Below, one piece after another: positions 743 through 32,470 of a stretch of DNA of 39,297 bases. Positions within the stretch are counted from its first letter, which is position 1. The number at the start of each line of letters is the position of its first letter. Both the position numbers and the translations under genes were made by a program. The stretch is from Blastopirellula marina. Its GTDB lineage: Bacteria; Planctomycetota; Planctomycetia; Pirellulales; Thermoguttaceae. The stretch is taken from positions 1-39,297 of the forward strand of contig DYLT01000007.1 in the NCBI GenBank assembly GCA_020721945.1, written 5' to 3'. The notes beneath the pieces were generated by a model. That model was not told the DNA's origin and searched no databases. It saw only the letters and a list, made by a program, of their open reading frames with translations.

Positions 743-1837
743 TCACTTCACGGCGCCGGCCATTTCGAACATGGGCAGGTATATCGCCAACATCAGCCCC
801 GCGATCGTTCCGCCCATCACGATGATGATCGCGGGCTCCATGAGCTTGGTGACCTTGGCCAGAAAGCTGTGCATTTTTTCCTTGTAGTACGGGGCGATCT
901 GTTCCATGACCGGCGCCAACTGGGAAGACTCCTCGCCGATGCGGACCATGTTGGTCATCATCGTGGTAAACAGCCTGGTGTCGACGAGGGAATCGGCCAG
1001 CGGGTGGCCGGTGGCCACGCGGCGGTGGACCTCGAGCATCGCGTCGCGGTAGATCGGGTTGCCGCGGAACACCGTGCTCATGGCCGAGAGCGTTTCGAGC
1101 ATGGGCACGCCGCTTTTCAGCAGCAAGGCGAGGTTCGAGGCGAAACGGTACATGGCCGACTGGATAATCAAGTCGCCGAACAGCGGCAACGAGATTCCCA
1201 TCGCCAGGACGCGGCGGAGGCCCTCTTCGCGGCGGAGGTAGTAGCGCACGCCGGCCACCAGCGCCGCCACACCGCCCACCAGGTAGAGGCCGTTGGCCAC
1301 GATGAAATCCGATGCCTTCAGCACGTATTCGGTGATGGCCGGGAGCTTGGCGTTCATCTCGCGGAACATGGCCGCGAAGGTGGGCACGACGAACCAGAGC
1401 ATCGTGACGACGACGCCCACGGCGACGACGAGGAGGACGATCGGGTAGATCAAGGCACCGGTGACCTTGCGTCGGGCCTCGCGCGACTCGCGGATCTGCT
1501 GGTTCAGCTCGCAGAGCACCATGCCCATCTTGCCCGACACCTCGCCCGTGCCGATCACCTCGATCCAATGGTCCTCGAAGATGCCGCGGTAATCGCCCAG
1601 CACCGAGTACAGCGACCCACCGCCGGCCACGCGCTCGGCGATTTCGGTCAGCACGGTGCGCATCCGCGTGCTCTGGCTCTGCTCGGCCGCCATCTGGAGG
1701 GCTCCCAGCAGCGGCGTGCCGGAGACCACCAAGGTGGACAATTGCTGGAAAAACGCCATCTTGTCGTCCAGCGTGATGCGCGTGTGCTGCTTGGCGGACG
1801 TACGGGCGTGGGCGAGGCACCAAGCTTCCAAAGGCAT
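743..1837 (-). CDS. gspF: Type II secretion/type IV pilus inner-membrane platform protein GspF/PilC
   Basis: A 364-residue polytopic inner-membrane protein that anchors the assembly ATPase to the pseudopilus machinery. Two T2SSF domains are visible, at about residues 25-150 and 225-350. Each has the conserved FFxQLSTLVxSGxPL / FASNLALLLKSGVPMLE type helices and is followed by hydrophobic segments: about 125-158, 175-197 and a C-terminal one at 335-360. The Gly-Glu signatures GTGEVSGKMG and GEESSQL, typical of the two repeats, are present. The protein is slightly short because the usual N-terminal extension is almost absent. The ATG at 1837 has GGGAG 9 nt upstream and follows the ATPase gene by 29 nt. 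It appears intact, unlike several neighbours. Confidence 0.93.
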   Translation of the reverse strand: MPLEAWCLAHARTSAKQHTRITLDDKMAFFQQLSTLVVSGTPLLGALQMAAEQSQSTRMRTVLTEIAERVAGGGSLYSVLGDYRGIFEDHWIEVIGTGEVSGKMGMVLCELNQQIRESREARRKVTGALIYPIVLLVVAVGVVVTMLWFVVPTFAAMFREMNAKLPAITEYVLKASDFIVANGLYLVGGVAALVAGVRYYLRREEGLRRVLAMGISLPLFGDLIIQSAMYRFASNLALLLKSGVPMLETLSAMSTVFRGNPIYRDAMLEVHRRVATGHPLADSLVDTRLFTTMMTNMVRIGEESSQLAPVMEQIAPYYKEKMHSFLAKVTKLMEPAIIIVMGGTIAGLMLAIYLPMFEMAGAVK

Positions 1838-1866: not shown

Positions 1867-4047
1867 TCAGTCGTCCTCGGAGATGGTGATGGCCAGGGCC
1901 TCTTCGAGGCTCGTGACGCCCTGGCGCACCTTCTCCAGCGCGCTGGCGCGGAGCAACTTGATCCCGTGCTCGACCGCGGCCTGGCGCAGCGCGGCCAGAG
2001 GCGTGCGAGTCTGAATCAGGCTAGCCAGCCGGCTGGTGATGGGCACCACCTCGAACACGCCCACACGCCGCCGGTAGCCTATGTCGCGGCACTCGCGGCA
2101 CCCCCGTGGGCGATAGATGCGTTCGCCCGAACCAAGGCCATACCGCTCGGCCGTCTCCGGGGCGCAGTCGTACGGCTCGCGGCAGTGCAGGCACAGCCGG
2201 CGCAAGAGGCGCTGGGCGAGCACCACGCGCAGCGTCGAGGCCAGAAGGAACGGCTCGGTACCCATGTCCTGAAGCCGGTTGACGGCGGCCAGCGCGTCGT
2301 TCGTGTGGAGCGTCGAGAGGACGAAGTGGCCGGTCAGGGCCGCCCGCAGGCAGATCTGGGCCGTCTCGGCGTCGCGGACCTCGCCCACCATGATGATGTC
2401 GGGGTCCTGGCGCAGAAACGCGCGCAAGGCGCTGGCAAAGGTCAAGCCGATCTGCGACTTGACCTGGATCTGGTTCACGCCCGGCATCTTATATTCCACC
2501 GGGTCCTCGACCGTGCAGATGTTCTTCTGCGACCGGTTCAGCAAATTGAGGCATGCGTACAGAGTGGTACTTTTGCCGCTGCCGGTCGGGCCGGTCACCA
2601 GGGCCAGGCCGTGAGGCGTCTGGATGCCCGTCGTCAGATCGTCGCGCTGGCGTTCGTCCAGGCCCAGATCGGCCAATTGCAGCGACACGGCGCTGCGGTC
2701 GAGGATTCGCATGACGACTTTCTCGCCATAGATCGTCGGGACCGTGTTGACGCGCACATCCACGCGTTTCTCGCCGGTCTTCAGCGCGATGGCGCCATCC
2801 TGCGGCAGCCGCTTCTCGGCGATGTCCATCTTCGCCAGCACCTTGATGCGAGAGATGATCGGCACGAATAGGGCCAGGGGCGGGGGAGCCACCTCGGTCA
2901 GATTGCCGTCCACGCGAACCCGCACGCGGCATCGGTCCTCGAACGGCTCCATGTGGATGTCGCTGGCGCCGACGCGGAAGGCCTGCTCGAGCACCTGGTT
3001 CACATAGCGGACGATGCGCCCGTCCCGGCCGGGCGGAGGCGGCTGGTCGAGGTGGACCACGTCCTCGTTGGACGCCGCCGTCGTGGCGTCCGCCTCGTCG
3101 CGCTCGGCCACCTCCTCGAAACTCGTCGTGCGCTCCGGGGTCTCGGGCGTTTCCGGCCACTCCGAGTTCTCGTAGAGCAGCCCCAAGAGTCCCTCGACCA
3201 CCGAGAGCGGAGCGATCCACGGGCGGATCTCCATGCCCGTGATCAATTGCAGCTCGTCGATCAGGTGCAACTCGTTCGGCGTGAAAAACGCCACCTCCAT
3301 GGTCCGGCCGAAAACGGCCATCGGGGCCATGAGATGATCGCGGCAGAGCTTTTCGGGAAGCCGGTGCGCGATCTCGCGGTCCACCCGAATCGGCTTCTCC
3401 GCGGAATCGAAAAGCGGCAAGAGGAAATGCTCGGAATACGCCCGGGCGATGTCGCGGTCGCTGGCCAGCCCCTTGCGGATCAGGATTTCCTCGAGCGTGA
3501 GCTTCTCGCGAGCCTGCGCCTCGCGGATGGGCTCCAACTGGTCCTCGGCCAGTTGGCCGGTGCGGAGCAAAAGCCGGATCACCAGCGGCAGGCGATCGCC
3601 CGGTTCCCAGCTCTTATCGTTGATGATCGCCACGCTTCGCCGGGCACCCACGTAGGTGCCCGACAACGTCAGGCGCGCCAACCGGTCGGCAAGGCTCTTC
3701 TCGGGGACGTTGTCCTTGGCCGCACCAGAAGCTTTCAAGTCCCTGGAGGACTGGGCCGTGGTGGAAGGCCTAACCGCGGTGGAGGGTTTGGCTGCACCGG
3801 CCTGAGCGGCTGGTGCCGCCTTGGCCGCCGGTGGCTCGCCGCGCGGCGGCGCGTGGGCAAGCTGGAAGGGATTGCGGCCCGTGCCAGGATCCAACACGGG
3901 GTTCCATAGCGCGGCGGGCAGCTTGGCCGTTTCGTCGGGCCGCGATGGGGTTGCGCGGGGCGTCGCGTCCAGGTACGGCCAACTGCACCACAGCGCCATC
4001 GCGGCGACGATTGCCGCCGGAGCCGATCTCGCGACGTGCCCTCTCAT
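1867..4047 (-). CDS. Secretion ATPase PilB/GspE with an N-terminal PilP/GspC-like module fused in frame
   Basis: A 726-residue product. Residues 1-29 look like a membrane anchor or signal (hydrophobic AAIVAAMALW). Residues 30-152 are an Ala/Pro-rich linker ending in a PilP/GspC-like strand pattern (LTLSGTYVGARRSVAIIN, then DKSWEPGDRL). From about residue 155 the sequence becomes a GspE N-domain (LLLRTGQLAEDQL) and then the ATPase: Walker A GPTGSGKST at 486-494, Asp box CTVEDPVEY, Walker B region LRQDPDIIMVGEVRD, His box near 572-585, and a tetracysteine zinc site at C619/C622/C650/C653. The ATG at 4047 forms an ATGA overlap with the PilO stop. PilP-type domains are periplasmic and the ATPase is cytosolic, so the fusion is topologically odd. 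The PilP part also lacks its usual C-terminus. A deletion or assembly join is likely; an independent internal GTG start for the ATPase near residue 156 is possible. Confidence 0.88.
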   Translation of the reverse strand: MRGHVARSAPAAIVAAMALWCSWPYLDATPRATPSRPDETAKLPAALWNPVLDPGTGRNPFQLAHAPPRGEPPAAKAAPAAQAGAAKPSTAVRPSTTAQSSRDLKASGAAKDNVPEKSLADRLARLTLSGTYVGARRSVAIINDKSWEPGDRLPLVIRLLLRTGQLAEDQLEPIREAQAREKLTLEEILIRKGLASDRDIARAYSEHFLLPLFDSAEKPIRVDREIAHRLPEKLCRDHLMAPMAVFGRTMEVAFFTPNELHLIDELQLITGMEIRPWIAPLSVVEGLLGLLYENSEWPETPETPERTTSFEEVAERDEADATTAASNEDVVHLDQPPPPGRDGRIVRYVNQVLEQAFRVGASDIHMEPFEDRCRVRVRVDGNLTEVAPPPLALFVPIISRIKVLAKMDIAEKRLPQDGAIALKTGEKRVDVRVNTVPTIYGEKVVMRILDRSAVSLQLADLGLDERQRDDLTTGIQTPHGLALVTGPTGSGKSTTLYACLNLLNRSQKNICTVEDPVEYKMPGVNQIQVKSQIGLTFASALRAFLRQDPDIIMVGEVRDAETAQICLRAALTGHFVLSTLHTNDALAAVNRLQDMGTEPFLLASTLRVVLAQRLLRRLCLHCREPYDCAPETAERYGLGSGERIYRPRGCRECRDIGYRRRVGVFEVVPITSRLASLIQTRTPLAALRQAAVEHGIKLLRASALEKVRQGVTSLEEALAITISEDD

Positions 4048-4583
4048 GTTCCGCTCCGAAGACCCCAAAGGACCAGTTGCATAACCAGCCGCCTCTCGTC
4101 GCCTTTGGCCGGGGCGATCTTCGCCGAGTCGACGCGAAACAAACGCCGGTTGGTCTCGAGCCAAGCCAGGAACGCATCGAGATCGCGGTAGTTCCCCTCC
4201 AGTTCGACGGTCAACTGCACCGCCTGGTAGGGGCCCAGACGCTCCAGGGAACCCGCGTCCAACGCGGTCATCTTGAGCGGGTACTTCCGGACGCCTTGCA
4301 GTACGTATTGAATCCACTCGTTGTTGTCGGTGTTGGCCGGCACCCGGTCCGCGAATCGTTCCACTTGCAGGCGAAGGCAATCGGCCTCGGTAAACAGGGC
4401 CTGGCGTCGGCGTTCGTTCTGGAGGGTGCGGCCGGTCTCGTCGAGATGACTGCTCAGCGGTAGATAGACCCCCAGATATCCTGCCGCCAACATCACGACC
4501 GAGACCAGGACGCGCAGCCGGTTGGGATCGCGGAACTGCTCGGCCAGCGATCGCGCGAAGGACTTGGTTTCCTTAGCGTCCAT
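4044..4583 (-). CDS. pilO: PilO-like secretion/pilus assembly protein
   Basis: A 179-residue bitopic membrane protein: a short cytosolic N-terminus, one transmembrane helix at about residues 24-44, a coiled-coil segment (roughly 45-80, LDETGRTLQNERRRQALF), and a ferredoxin-like periplasmic domain ending in LVMQLVLWGL. This is the normal PilO/GspM layout. In the alignment complex it would pair with PilN and PilP and link the platform to the secretin. The ATG at 4583 has GAGG 6 nt upstream and lies inside the end of the PilN-like fragment (11-nt overlap). Its TGA overlaps the ATG of the next gene (ATGA). Both overlaps point to translational coupling. No lesion is seen in this gene, which makes the damage on either side more notable. 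Confidence 0.85.
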   Translation of the reverse strand: MDAKETKSFARSLAEQFRDPNRLRVLVSVVMLAAGYLGVYLPLSSHLDETGRTLQNERRRQALFTEADCLRLQVERFADRVPANTDNNEWIQYVLQGVRKYPLKMTALDAGSLERLGPYQAVQLTVELEGNYRDLDAFLAWLETNRRLFRVDSAKIAPAKGDERRLVMQLVLWGLRSGT

Positions 4584-5359
4584 GGCTTGCCTCGGGAAGC
4601 TGGGCGATTTCGTCGGGCGCTTGCTTGGCCGCCTTCTCCTTGGCCTCCTTGGGATGGCAGACCACGGTGAACCAGGCGGCCGGAGATTCGGTCCCCAGGC
4701 GGCGGACTTGCTTCAGTTCCGTCAGCTCGACGATCGGGAAGTCGCGCCGCAGCCGCGGATGGGACCGAAGACTGTCGATCATTCATGGCCTCGTGTTCCC
4801 CGAGAAACAGGCGGAGGACGACCTTGGCTCCGCGCGGGGCGCGATAGGCCCGAAGCGCCACGCGCCGCAAGGCGCACGGGCCGGGCTCGATGCGCACGGG
4901 TCGAAGCCCCCGCGCGCCCAGCGCGGCCACCACATCGCTCACGTACTGCCCGTCGCACGCCGCGATACTGGCCACGGGCCGGCGGTCGGGTTGCACCTTG
5001 AGCACGTCGACCACCATCTGGCCGACGGAAATGTTCGGCGACCGCAGCGCTTCACGAAGCAAAACATGCGGGGACGGGTCGCGGCTGACCGACTGAATCG
5101 GACGCGTGGCAAAGAACACCTTGCGCGCCGAAATGCTGACCGCCACCGGCACGTGACCTCGGCCGCGCGGACCGAGAAACGACCGAAGCAACTGGTCGAG
5201 GGCCTCCTCGTGTTCCCCGTCGGCGAACGGCTCCGTCCGGCGGACCACCTCGACCGGGCCCAGCGGCGTGGCGACCGCCTGGCTCAGCGTGATCGTGCCT
5301 TCCCCGAGGTACAGGCCGACGGCCTTGGGCAAGCCGATCTTCGCCAAGACGGACTTCAT
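4493..5359 (-). CDS. PilM/GspL-like actin-fold assembly protein, C-terminal half lost (out-of-frame tail)
   Basis: The first ~191 codons match a PilM/GspL-type cytosolic actin-like protein: KAVGLYLGEGTITLSQAV at the start, a central VLLREALRSPNISVGQMVVD region, and SIAACDGQYVSDVVAALGA with a following RPVRIEPGPCAL strand. The match stops around position 4787 (VLRLFLGEHEA). Beyond that, the frame runs antiframe through the PilN-like fragment and the PilO start until 4493, giving a low-complexity, non-homologous tail of about 97 residues. PilM proteins are normally about 350 residues, so roughly half is missing. The start at 5359 is firm: GGGAGG lies about 7 nt upstream. PilM would normally sit under the ring and bind the PilN N-terminus, which is also missing here. 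Either a real deletion or an assembly collapse joins PilM' to 'PilN. Confidence 0.6.
   Translation of the reverse strand: MKSVLAKIGLPKAVGLYLGEGTITLSQAVATPLGPVEVVRRTEPFADGEHEEALDQLLRSFLGPRGRGHVPVAVSISARKVFFATRPIQSVSRDPSPHVLLREALRSPNISVGQMVVDVLKVQPDRRPVASIAACDGQYVSDVVAALGARGLRPVRIEPGPCALRRVALRAYRAPRGAKVVLRLFLGEHEAMNDRQSSVPSAAAARLPDRRADGTEASPPPGDRISGRLVHRGLPSQGGQGEGGQASARRNRPASRGKPWTLRKPSPSRDRWPSSSAIPTGCASWSRS
4573..4782 (-). CDS. PilN-like C-terminal fragment
   Basis: A 69-residue frame whose sequence (SLRSHPRLRRDFPIVELTEL, then WFTVVCHPKEA) resembles the C-terminal end of PilN/fimbrial assembly proteins. In those proteins a last beta-alpha-beta unit ends in a strand like FTVVC followed by a charged tail. 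Full PilN proteins are about 180-200 residues with an N-terminal transmembrane helix; neither helix nor N-domain is present. A TGA stop precedes the ATG directly, so nothing upstream in this frame can be translated with it. The end overlaps the PilO start by 11 nt, as expected in an intact pilN-pilO pair. I read it as the remnant right of a deletion junction. It may still be translated, because GAGG lies 6 nt before the ATG. Confidence 0.55.
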   Translation of the reverse strand: MIDSLRSHPRLRRDFPIVELTELKQVRRLGTESPAAWFTVVCHPKEAKEKAAKQAPDEIAQLPEASHGR

Positions 5360-5510
5360 GGTCACACCTCCCGTTCCATCCCGGCGTCCAGGCGGCCGCC
5401 TTGGAATGCGCGGGGGCACCGTCTCCTTCCCGTTTCCCGCGCATTCGGCAAGGAAGCAATCGTGGTCTAGCCCGCGATGCCCTCAGGTCGTTGCCGCGGC
5501 CCCGTCCGCA

Positions 5511-5960
5511 TTAGGTGCCTTGCGGGTTGATGTCGGGCATACTCTGGATCGTGCTGTTGACGGAATCGTACCCCTCCTGGGTAAACGTGACCGTGTACGC
5601 ACCGTAGCCTGCCGACGCCCCCTGGCGCGTGAGCGTCAACGACCAGGAGTCCTCCAGCGAACCCGAAGCCCCAGGCTGGATCATGCCCACGGTGAAGTAC
5701 TTGGGGGCCGATTGCTCCATATCCAAGTCGGTCAGGGTCGCCGCGTACGTACCTTGACGGGCCTGGTACCGCTCTTGGGCGGCACGCACCGTGGCGAGGC
5801 ACTGGAACGCCTCGGCCGCCTTGGACCGTTCGACGCTCTTGAGCATCCGGGGGATACCAAACGTCGCCAACACGCCGATGATGATGACGACCACCGACAA
5901 CTCGACCAGCGAAAACCCTTTGCGGTTCGAAACCGCCTCACGCGAACGCATGTTCTTCAT
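5511..5960 (-). CDS. Major pseudopilin, GspG/PilA-like
   Basis: A 149-residue class III prepilin. The leader of 15 residues ends in Gly, followed by mature FSLVELSVVVIIIGVLATFG with Glu at mature position 5 and the N-methylated Phe position intact. After the helix comes the typical region where short repeats are read (AAEAFQCLATVRAAQERYQA). The rest is a small beta domain ending in NPQGT. Several starts are in frame; the ATG at 5960 is chosen because GGAGGT lies 6 nt upstream. An upstream in-frame ATG at 6023 lacks such a site. It sits directly after the secretin gene and before the PilM-like gene. As the first pseudopilin and the most canonical of the three seen, it is the best candidate for the main pseudopilus subunit. 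Confidence 0.88.
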   Translation of the reverse strand: MKNMRSREAVSNRKGFSLVELSVVVIIIGVLATFGIPRMLKSVERSKAAEAFQCLATVRAAQERYQARQGTYAATLTDLDMEQSAPKYFTVGMIQPGASGSLEDSWSLTLTRQGASAGYGAYTVTFTQEGYDSVNSTIQSMPDINPQGT

Positions 5961-6035
5961 GGAATGACCTCCAACCTTGCCTGAATCCACGCAGCCGTAA
6001 CCTTTGGTACCGCCCGGGATCACATGCCCAGCGGC

Positions 6036-7511
6036 TCAAGAAATGATCGAATGATCCTCCAACGAGGGGAAATCTAATCCTCTCGGTGGGAAGGACGCCG
6101 AGGGAACCGCTTCGGGTTCTTCGGGACTGGAGCCTTGCGGTGGGCACACCGATTCGGCACTTCGGGGCTGGTGGCCCCAGTGCGGTGGCAGAAGTCCGCG
6201 CGGATTGCGCACCGCGTCGGGCAGCATGGCCTCGCCAGGCCGCGCGCACCGCTCCAAAGCCCCGTGAAACAACGGCGTCTCGGCACGCTGGACCTCGAAT
6301 CGCTCCCGGGCGGCGTCGTCGGGCGTGTACGGCATGACCCGGGGTAGCAGCGTGATGACGATCTCCGCGCGGCTCTTCGTGACCGCCTGCTTCTGAAACA
6401 GCCGCCCCACCAGCCACAAGTCGCCGAGAAACGGAATCTTGCTTTGTTGGGTGTCGTCCTTTTCCTGAATCAATCCGCCGATCAACATGCCCTGGCAGTC
6501 GTTCATCATCACGTCGGTCTCGGCCTGGGTGGTTTTCTCCTCGGGCAGGGCGGTTTCGGTGTTGATCTTGCCGCTGGAGACCTTCGGTTTGACCCGCAGC
6601 GTGACGTGCCCGTCGCGGCTGATCCGCGGCGTTACCTCGAGTACCACGCCGACCTCGAGGAACTTCACGTCCTCCATCGACGAGGTCTCGGTCGTCGTCA
6701 CGACGCGGTAGCCGAGCCGCTCGCCGATCTGGATCTGCGCCTTCTGGCCGTTGAGCACCAGAACCTTGGGCGACGCGAGCGTCTTCGCGTCGGTGGTCGT
6801 TTGAAGGCATTCGATCAGCGCGTCGAAGTTCGACCCGTTGATGTTGACGAAGAACGCCTGGGGGGCCGCGGGGTTCGCGAACCCCTGAACCTTCAAAGTG
6901 ACGTCGTTGTTGACCACCCGAAAGATATGCTCCCAGTTCACGCCGCTCCGTTTGTCGTCTTTCAAGTCGATCTGGAGGATGTGGGCCTCGATAAGCACCT
7001 GGAGCGGCGGTTGATCGATCTGGCGGAGGTACTGCTCGACACGGCGCAGGGGGTCGGGGCCATCGTCGACCACGAGCACGTCGCGGGTCCGGCGGTTGTC
7101 CTCCGGATCGCTTTGCGTGATGTAGCACTTTCCGGCGGGCGAGAGCATGCCCCGGACCGCCCCCTCGACATCGGTCGCGGCCACGTGGTCCAACGGAAAG
7201 ACCCGCAGCATTCGCGTGGCCTGGGCGTGTTCTTCCGGCGTGCAAACGAAGAGGATGCCTCGTTCGCGGTAGGCCACGAGGTTGCTCAGTTTGAGGATGC
7301 TCTGGAAGGCCTCTTCGGGGCTCATGCCCCGCAAGTCGGCTGTGATCCGGCCGCGCACCCCGGGCGACACGAGCAGATTCTCGTTTCCCTCGCGACTGAG
7401 CATCTCGAGGACCTTGCGCACCTCGACATCGTCGAGGTGCAGGCTAACGAGGCGTCGAGCCGCCGAGCCCGCGCCTCTTGAGGGCGCGGTGGCGGCCGCG
7501 TGCGCGACCAT
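6036..7511 (-). CDS. Secretin (GspD/PilQ-type), N-terminus disrupted
   Basis: The 491-residue frame contains an STN/secretin N0-like module (VSLHLDDVEVRKVLEMLS, then ADLRGMSPEEAFQSILK), a second N-domain, and the secretin barrel domain: KVLVLNGQKAQIQIGERLGY, EVGVVLEVTPRISRDGHVTL, then GMLIGGLIQEKD and SKIPFLGDLWLVGRLF. A Pro/Ala/Ser-rich tail of about 100 residues follows. It would form the outer-membrane channel of the secretion or pilus system. The predicted ATG start gives an N-terminus without a signal peptide, which a secretin needs. Upstream, at 7655-8041, is a signal-like segment and Pro-rich sequence in another frame, separated by a TAG and a frame change. The barrel is intact but the gene as assembled cannot be exported as one polypeptide. 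Confidence 0.85.
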   Translation of the reverse strand: MVAHAAATAPSRGAGSAARRLVSLHLDDVEVRKVLEMLSREGNENLLVSPGVRGRITADLRGMSPEEAFQSILKLSNLVAYRERGILFVCTPEEHAQATRMLRVFPLDHVAATDVEGAVRGMLSPAGKCYITQSDPEDNRRTRDVLVVDDGPDPLRRVEQYLRQIDQPPLQVLIEAHILQIDLKDDKRSGVNWEHIFRVVNNDVTLKVQGFANPAAPQAFFVNINGSNFDALIECLQTTTDAKTLASPKVLVLNGQKAQIQIGERLGYRVVTTTETSSMEDVKFLEVGVVLEVTPRISRDGHVTLRVKPKVSSGKINTETALPEEKTTQAETDVMMNDCQGMLIGGLIQEKDDTQQSKIPFLGDLWLVGRLFQKQAVTKSRAEIVITLLPRVMPYTPDDAARERFEVQRAETPLFHGALERCARPGEAMLPDAVRNPRGLLPPHWGHQPRSAESVCPPQGSSPEEPEAVPSASFPPRGLDFPSLEDHSIIS

Positions 7512-7654
7512 GCGGGTGTCTGGTCCCTGTGCCCGACCTGGCCCCGAGCTTCGGCGACCACGCCGAATGGGAATGGGTCGCGGTCCACGTGCAAGGCCGG
7601 GACGACCGGCACGTCTCGGCCGGGCCGGGCCGGCAACGGCACTTGGGCAAGCGG

Positions 7655-8041
7655 CTACGACGAGGACGCCAGGGGAGTCAAGGCGAGGTCCACGGCGTTC
7701 GGATTTCCATCGCGGCCAAGCCTCACCGGTGCAATCCGAGACACCCCAGCGGCCTCAGTGGTCTCGCCCAGCAGGTTGCCGAAGAACGTGACGGGGGGCA
7801 ATCGGCGCAGGCATATCGGGGAGGTTCTTGGGTCCGCCACCGGGCTCCGCAAGCTCGGCGTATCCGGCGGGACATGGCGGGCCATCATTGCCCCGAGCAG
7901 GAAAACCGACATCGCCACGGTGAGCAAGCCGCGCAAGCGACCCGTCGAGGCACCCAGCGCAAGGCCGCGACGCGAGGATCGCCCCAACTCCGGCAGGACG
8001 CTCGCATCTCGGGTTCGAATGCTACCCCGTCGGTGGTGCAT
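7655..8041 (-). CDS. Small signal-bearing ORF, probably the detached N-terminus of the secretin
   Basis: From an ATG at 8041 this frame reads a long basic N-region, then a hydrophobic stretch LRGLLTVAMSVFLLGAMMA typical of a signal peptide, then about 75 residues of Pro/Thr-rich sequence to a TAG at 7657-7655. In the same frame the sequence continues past the TAG for about 48 codons (PLAQVPLPARPGRDVPVV and on) with GC-rich third positions, before the secretin reading frame begins in another phase near 7511. This fits an ancestral secretin N-terminus broken by one nonsense codon and one frameshift. The start is unsure: no ribosome site precedes 8041, and a TTG closer to the hydrophobic segment is possible. 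A separate small exported protein remains an alternative. Confidence 0.38.
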   Translation of the reverse strand: MHHRRGSIRTRDASVLPELGRSSRRGLALGASTGRLRGLLTVAMSVFLLGAMMARHVPPDTPSLRSPVADPRTSPICLRRLPPVTFFGNLLGETTEAAGVSRIAPVRLGRDGNPNAVDLALTPLASSS

Positions 8042-30641: not shown

Positions 30642-31574
30642 TCAGTGCATCTCCGCCGCCACGGTGCCCAAGCCGTGCCGGTAGAAATTGAACTGCACGT
30701 TGGGATGGTCCGCCAACAGCGACATGGGCACCGCCGAATCGGGAATCCGCGTGCTGATCATCAACGTGGTCAGTCGCATGCCGAAAGGATTGTCGTGCAT
30801 GCCAGCCTGCCAGATCGACACTTTTTCGGCCTTCCAGGTCTCGACAGGCCCCACCGTGGCCGCCTTGGTGGGCACCATGGCCACATGCCCGCCGCCGGAG
30901 GTGCGGGCGTTCTGGATGATGGTCATCGGGTGTAGATCGGTCACGCGGGTCGAGAGCTTCCGGTATTCCTCGGGCGGAGGCGGCGCGTCTTTGTACCGGC
31001 CCTTGCGGCGGGGCGGATCGTTGAAGGCCCAGTGTTTCACCTCGCCCTGCCCCCCTTGCATCACGGCGCAACGCACCTGATCGTAGGTCTTCGCATAGGC
31101 CGCCAGATCGCCCGTGGGAAAATGCAGGTGCGCCTGGGGCATGCGGAGCTTCGGCTTGATCCTCCGGAAACACAACTCCATGTCGGCCTTGGCGAAGCTC
31201 AGGGGGTGGGTGATGGGTACGGGCTGGCCCTGCTCGTCGACCCATTCGTCCATGCCCCAGAAGTGCGCACTGCGAACGTCCAGTTCCAGTTCATTGACGA
31301 GCCGGGCGACCAGGGGAAGCTGCTCCGTCGGGCCGATCGGCCCGCAAATGCCCACCGGGTTGTCGTCGGTCGACTGCTTCCAAGCCGTCACGTATTCCAA
31401 GGCTTCGGCAAGGTAGAAGTCCTCGAGCGTGTCGTACATGACCACGCGAAAGCCGGGCCGGGAGAGCTTCACCAGGTCCTTCGGCGAAAGCCGGGCGGCG
31501 TCGTCGAGGATCTCCGGGTCGAGGGTCGTGTAGTCCCACCATTCGGGAGCGACTTTGCTGAGGGGGCGCGACAT
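30642..31574 (-). CDS. NagB-like glucosamine-6-phosphate deaminase/isomerase family protein
   Basis: A 310-residue cytosolic protein of the NagB/RpiA-like fold. Family features are the phosphate/sugar region [39 protein letters not shown] and [12 protein letters not shown], which keeps Asp109 (E. coli NagB Asp72 equivalent). The usual DGHIAFNEP motif reads [11 protein letters not shown] here: His181 is kept, the Asp at -2 is Val179 and the Glu becomes Asp186, by my alignment. Substrate may therefore differ from glucosamine-6-phosphate. The ATG at 31574 has AGGAG 8 nt upstream. Upstream on the same strand lies a PIG-L-type deacetylase, giving a plausible deacetylase-deaminase pair for N-acetyl amino sugars. 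No frame damage seen. Confidence 0.85.
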
Positions 31575-31726
31575 GACGTAGGCTCCTGTCGATTGGCAAG
31601 GGCGGTTGGGCCAGGAATGGCGAAAATCGAAAGTCACAGGACCACGGAATGTCGACGGCCGAAGGACGAAACGGCCGGCCGCCGCCGAGGCCCTTCGTCA
31701 TCTGGCGTTCGACATTGGGCATTCTC

Positions 31727-32470
31727 TCATGGGAGCATTTCCGCCAACCAATCGTCTTTCGGATAGGCGTGGCCCCGGTGCTGGACAAAGGCCTCGGCCG
31801 CCGCCACGCCGATCTGGCGTCCGCGCATGGCCGCGTGCCGGCGCATGGCCTCGAGGTACTCGTCCATCCCGTGGTGGGCCCACAGCCACTCCCGCTGGCT
31901 GGCGTGGCAGGCAAGCATCTCGGCCTTCTTGTCCACCTGGGCCGTGATGTCGACATAGGTGGTCGCCGAGACCGGTTGGCCGAACGGATCGATGGCCTCG
32001 ATCGGGTCGCAATAGTACAGGTACGGCACGCACGAACCCTCCAGCACCGGGAACGCCGAGACGTTCGGGCCGGCGTAGAGGAAACTCGCGGCCCGGGCCA
32101 AGAGCGACGCCTGCTCGTGGTCGAGCATGTAGTCCTTCGGCGCGTGGGTGAAGACCAGCGACGGGGCGACGCGCCGAAACAGGTCGTAGGTCTTCTGCAA
32201 CGTGGGCTTGTCGTAGACGATGAATCCGTCGCGCTCGTCGAGACAATGATAGTGTCCCCCGATCTTCGCGGCCGAAGCCGTCGCCTCGCGCGTGCGCCGG
32301 CTGCTGATGTCCCAGCGGTTCTCCGTGGCCGTGCCGCAATCGCCCGGGGTACACGTGGCGATGTGGACTTGCCATCCCGCCTCCGCCAGGCGGATCAACG
32401 TTCCGGCGCAGAGCATCTCGGCGTCGTCGGGATGGGCCAAGAAGGCCAGCACGGTGCGGTTGCGGACCAC
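31727..32470 (-). CDS. PIG-L family N-acetylglucosamine-type deacetylase
   Basis: A 247-residue metal-dependent deacetylase of the LmbE/PIG-L/BshB superfamily. The zinc and catalytic motif HPDDAE is at residues 13-18 (His13, Asp15, Asp16), followed by the helix EMLCAGTLIRLAEAGWQVHI. The second metal motif is HAPKDYMLDHEQAS, with His118. Members remove acetyl groups from GlcNAc-containing small molecules or sugar phosphates. The GTG at 32470 starts just before the conserved strand; AAGGAG is 10 nt upstream. The upstream-open frame is not coding. It lies between the UDP-glucuronate decarboxylase and the NagB-like gene, all on one strand, though gaps of 193 and 152 nt leave the operon unproven. 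Confidence 0.9.
   Translation of the reverse strand: MVRNRTVLAFLAHPDDAEMLCAGTLIRLAEAGWQVHIATCTPGDCGTATENRWDISSRRTREATASAAKIGGHYHCLDERDGFIVYDKPTLQKTYDLFRRVAPSLVFTHAPKDYMLDHEQASLLARAASFLYAGPNVSAFPVLEGSCVPYLYYCDPIEAIDPFGQPVSATTYVDITAQVDKKAEMLACHASQREWLWAHHGMDEYLEAMRRHAAMRGRQIGVAAAEAFVQHRGHAYPKDDWLAEMLP

Follow-up and report, generated by a model that had tools for sequence, protein, structure and literature searches.

In the secretion operon of Blastopirellula marina, the beginning of a gspC-like gene continues in frame into gspE. This open frame is probably a fusion born of a deletion, real in the cell, in a type II secretion-like operon that has recently begun to decay. The window, that is the whole stretch of DNA analysed here (39,297 nt, contig DYLT01000007.1), comes from a draft genome of 576 contigs. 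It was compared with G001, the only same-genus genome in the comparison (a Thermoguttaceae MAG, isolate A05DMB26, coverage 2.8), and with more distant members of the family and order.

Composition of the fused frame

The frame is uninterrupted over its whole length, as originally predicted, and lies on the minus strand, which the prediction had left unstated. Its parts are as follows.

1867..4047, minus strand: fused gspC'-gspE open frame, 726 codons, no stop
3583..4047, minus strand: shortened gspC/pilP-like portion covering residues 1-155 (aligned with 11 intact relatives; weak GspC profile matches of the intact orthologue)
3582..3592, minus strand: deletion junction, the one copy left of the 11-bp repeat CCTGCCGCTGG (comparison with G001)
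1867..3582, minus strand: gspE/pilB ATPase part with MshEN and T2SSE domains, native start lost (domain matches and motifs)
Fusion residues 486-494: Walker A
Fusion residues 512-519: Asp box
Fusion residues 551-559: Walker B
Fusion residues 572-584: His box
Fusion residues 619-622 and 650-653: two CxxC pairs (tetracysteine site)

The larger part matches MshEN (PF05157, E=8e-10) and T2SSE (PF00437, E=1e-140) in Pfam, and its T2SSE domain carries both Walker motifs together with the Asp and His boxes. With the tetracysteine site, this is the full equipment of GspE/PilB ATPases (NCBIfam type_IV_pilB and type_II_gspE), although the scores fall just below the NCBIfam curated cut-offs. The earlier description of a complete ATPase thus holds for domains and motifs but not for the gene start, since the start codon and nine further codons, and only these, have been lost. 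Whereas MshEN would be expected at the protein's own cytosolic N-terminus, it is here preceded in frame by the anchor and partial domain of GspC, which supply the N-terminus of the fusion.

The smaller part begins with a hydrophobic segment that would serve as N-terminal anchor, followed by an RNPF motif, a Pro/Ala-rich linker and the first strands of the HR domain, ending GDRLPL. This layout agrees with the PilP-like module that had been proposed, yet the domain looks more like GspC, the PilP counterpart of type II secretion. The assignment is based on weak matches of the intact orthologue to NCBIfam GspC (E=0.001), Pfam T2SSC (E=0.05-0.07) and the GspC structure 2lnv in the PDB (E=0.067); anchor, linker, first HR strands and a gene position between gspM and gspE are likewise those of GspC. 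An AlphaFold model of the intact protein, built from a two-row alignment, reached a pLDDT of 46 and was set aside for fold searching. Although an anchor-like helix is present, the HR/PilP domain is incomplete: in the window alone, the match to the GspC profile breaks off at position 143 of 213, and the last conserved strands are missing. The helix is only moderately hydrophobic, with Kyte-Doolittle values of at most 1.5 over any 19 residues, and its membrane insertion is therefore presumed from the family. An anchor of the GspC/PilP type points its C-terminus to the periplasm and would place the ATPase on that side, where it does not belong.

A probable 298-bp deletion between direct repeats

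The same operon is found in G001 on contig C17 (L034), where gspC encodes 249 aa (L034 10091-10840) and gspE has its own ATG at L034 10815, overlapping the end of gspC in a different frame. In a DNA alignment the window equals the G001 sequence minus 298 bp, with one gap placed exactly between two copies of CCTGCCGCTGG (L034 10546 and 10844), one of which is retained. The in-frame deletion that had been suspected, removing the end of gspC and the start of gspE, is thereby supported, and the junction falls inside the interval proposed for it (3500-3620). The loss from GspC is larger than the 30-40 residues first estimated: relative to the same-genus orthologue it amounts to 94 residues, among them the conserved strands after GDRLPL and the entire C-terminal tail. 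Within the 6.4 kb of the operon, direct repeats of at least 11 bp at a spacing of 150-899 bp number only nine, and a random cut would land on one of them with a probability of ca. 2.5e-5. As in other deletions between short direct repeats, one copy has been kept and the intervening segment is gone, but here the event happens to join two genes in frame; the frame stays open because the two copies have identical codon phase, each within its gene. Neither the missing 298 bp nor the 767 bp missing from gspL (see below) was found elsewhere in the same genome, in which only short matches at chance level were detected. The nearest internal start codons of gspE are not preceded by a clear Shine-Dalgarno sequence.

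Twelve other genomes of the family carry a close relative of the junction region. In 11 of them (G001, G004, G005, G015, G017, G052, G053, G054, G106, G107 and G108) gspC and gspE are separate genes, while in the twelfth, G003, the contig ends inside gspC. The fusion is thus absent from every family genome in which both genes are visible, an outcome that the original prediction had taken to favour deletion or assembly error. Across 397 genomes of the order, a GspC profile matched in 66, and GspC and the ATPase share one frame only in the window and in G332 (see below). Further fusions in G306, G346, G387 and G393 were suggested by a listing of open frames, but direct translation gave separate genes. 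A plasmid search returned relatives of GspE, none covering 80% of the query, and the literature search found no papers on planctomycete GspC/GspE or on repeat-bounded deletions in type II secretion systems. In G004 a GspF-like match occurs twice and another GspC-like stretch adjoins gspE (L036 1951-3943, G004:C80), which suggests a partial duplication of the operon.

These comparisons point to an ancestor in which gspC and gspE were adjacent and overlapping within a type II secretion/type IV pilus-like operon. Slippage at the short repeats, or recombination between them, would then have removed the segment in the cell and not during assembly. A real though lesser possibility is that the assembler joined two contig ends over the 11-bp overlap across a gap in the reads, dropping 298 bp that the organism has. 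The exact overlap at the junction, the fragmentation of the draft and the good conservation of the genes on either side are all compatible with such an artefact. For rnaSPAdes, the closing of gaps over exact 8-bp overlaps with a single read pair has been described (PMC6736328); if a similar assembler was used, a false join over 11 bp could have arisen. The condition of the neighbouring genes bears on this choice.

Lesions and conservation in the rest of the operon

Read along the minus strand, the operon comprises the secretin gene, a pseudopilin gene, gspL/pilM, gspM/pilO, the gspC-gspE frame and gspF.

743..1837, minus strand: gspF platform protein gene, intact
4044..4583, minus strand: gspM/pilO-like gene, intact
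4573..5419, minus strand: gspL/pilM gene, frame broken by the loss of 767 bp at 4783/4784
5511..6023, minus strand: major pseudopilin-like gene, intact
6036..7905, minus strand: secretin gene, N-terminal region lesioned, body intact

The deletion in gspL (relative to G001) breaks the frame and, contrary to what an overlap join would leave, its ends overlap by almost nothing (1 bp). In G001 and nine other relatives the gene forms one frame of almost full length; in a tenth relative it runs off the end of the contig. Between the signal region and the body of the secretin, two further lesions relative to G001 were found, a CAG to TAG substitution at 7657 and a 1-bp frameshift near 7548, neither of which arises from joins of this kind. 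The secretin frame runs through its long N-terminal extension in G001 and in the four other relatives with enough sequence; these lesions nevertheless weigh less because the secretin linker is poorly conserved. Over the ca. 78 kb covered by the genome-to-genome comparison with G001, most large indels fall outside genes, and large frame-breaking deletions of the window's genome are confined to this operon, although the numbers are small. The gspL deletion and the secretin stop and frameshift, which short-overlap joins would not produce, speak for decay of the operon rather than for an assembly error.

Other differences from G001 were recorded. A 351-bp in-frame deletion inside a gene occurs at L057 17571 (G000:C2), and a further 599 bp just past it is also absent. 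At 30642-32170 of the window, a 110-bp insertion and a 1-bp shift affect what is a single 474-codon frame in G001 (L102 11320-12741); this gene has no Pfam match.

With gspL and the secretin N-terminus broken as well, the operon, as far as its sequence can tell, would no longer be functional and would have been inactivated recently. The good preservation of GspE, GspF and GspM, in which no sign of decay was seen, counts against decay and would date any inactivation to the very recent past: GspE shares 94.8% identity with that of G001 and has one window-only change at 277 conserved sites, so that it still looks selected. An unbroken PilB/PilC pair is present on another contig of the same genome, and loss of the operon may thus be tolerated.

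Retaining the GspC anchor and only some of the periplasmic domain, the fused product would take the ATPase out of the cytosol. Because an anchor of this type sends the C-terminus to the periplasm and because the GspC domain is incomplete, the product is unlikely to work. The original prediction had raised the prospect, should the frame be real, that the ATPase is tethered to the alignment complex in an unusual way. Such a functional GspC-GspE fusion appears very improbable: the open frame and intact ATPase motifs would allow it, but GspC is cut within its domain, gspL, the product of which normally recruits GspE, is broken, the signal region of the secretin no longer lies in frame, no family relative shares the fusion, and the topology of GspC would export the ATPase. 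The one further point in its favour is a second, independent GspC-GspE frame outside the family.

A second GspC-GspE frame and its bearing on the fusion

This second frame belongs to G332, a genome that consists of one contig and comes from another family.

L117 3516-5915 (G332:C1 ca. 783515-785914), minus strand: in-frame GspC-GspE, 799 codons

As in the window, GspC and GspE occupy a single open frame. Unlike in the window, both domains are complete, with no domain loss, and are joined by a linker with no obvious membrane segment; gspF, gspM, gspL and the pseudopilin gene beside them are intact. A GTG preceded by GGAG stands where relatives start gspE and may act as an internal start. In G501 and G336 both genes lie in one frame but are separated by stops, so that loss of a stop would give the state seen in G332, whereas in 20 other translated genomes of the family of G332 the gspE frame excludes gspC. 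G332 is therefore a better candidate than the window for a real fusion.

It has also been considered that GspC-GspE frames arise repeatedly in the order, because the genes are adjacent or overlapping, and that in some cells the fusion, or a dual product made by internal initiation of GspE, works and links the ATPase to the alignment complex. The chance that this is so seems slim; G332 would be its best candidate and the window a less likely one.

Taken at face value, the fused frame of the window would conflict with what is known of how type II secretion and type IV pilus machines are arranged in the membrane. Its origin, as seen from relatives, is simple, and it should therefore not be held up as an example of a novel architecture. 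What it records is either damage of recent date to a single secretion operon or a slip in the assembly of a draft genome, and it illustrates how easily neighbouring gspC and gspE join in frame. Whether such a fusion can work is better asked of the frame in G332.
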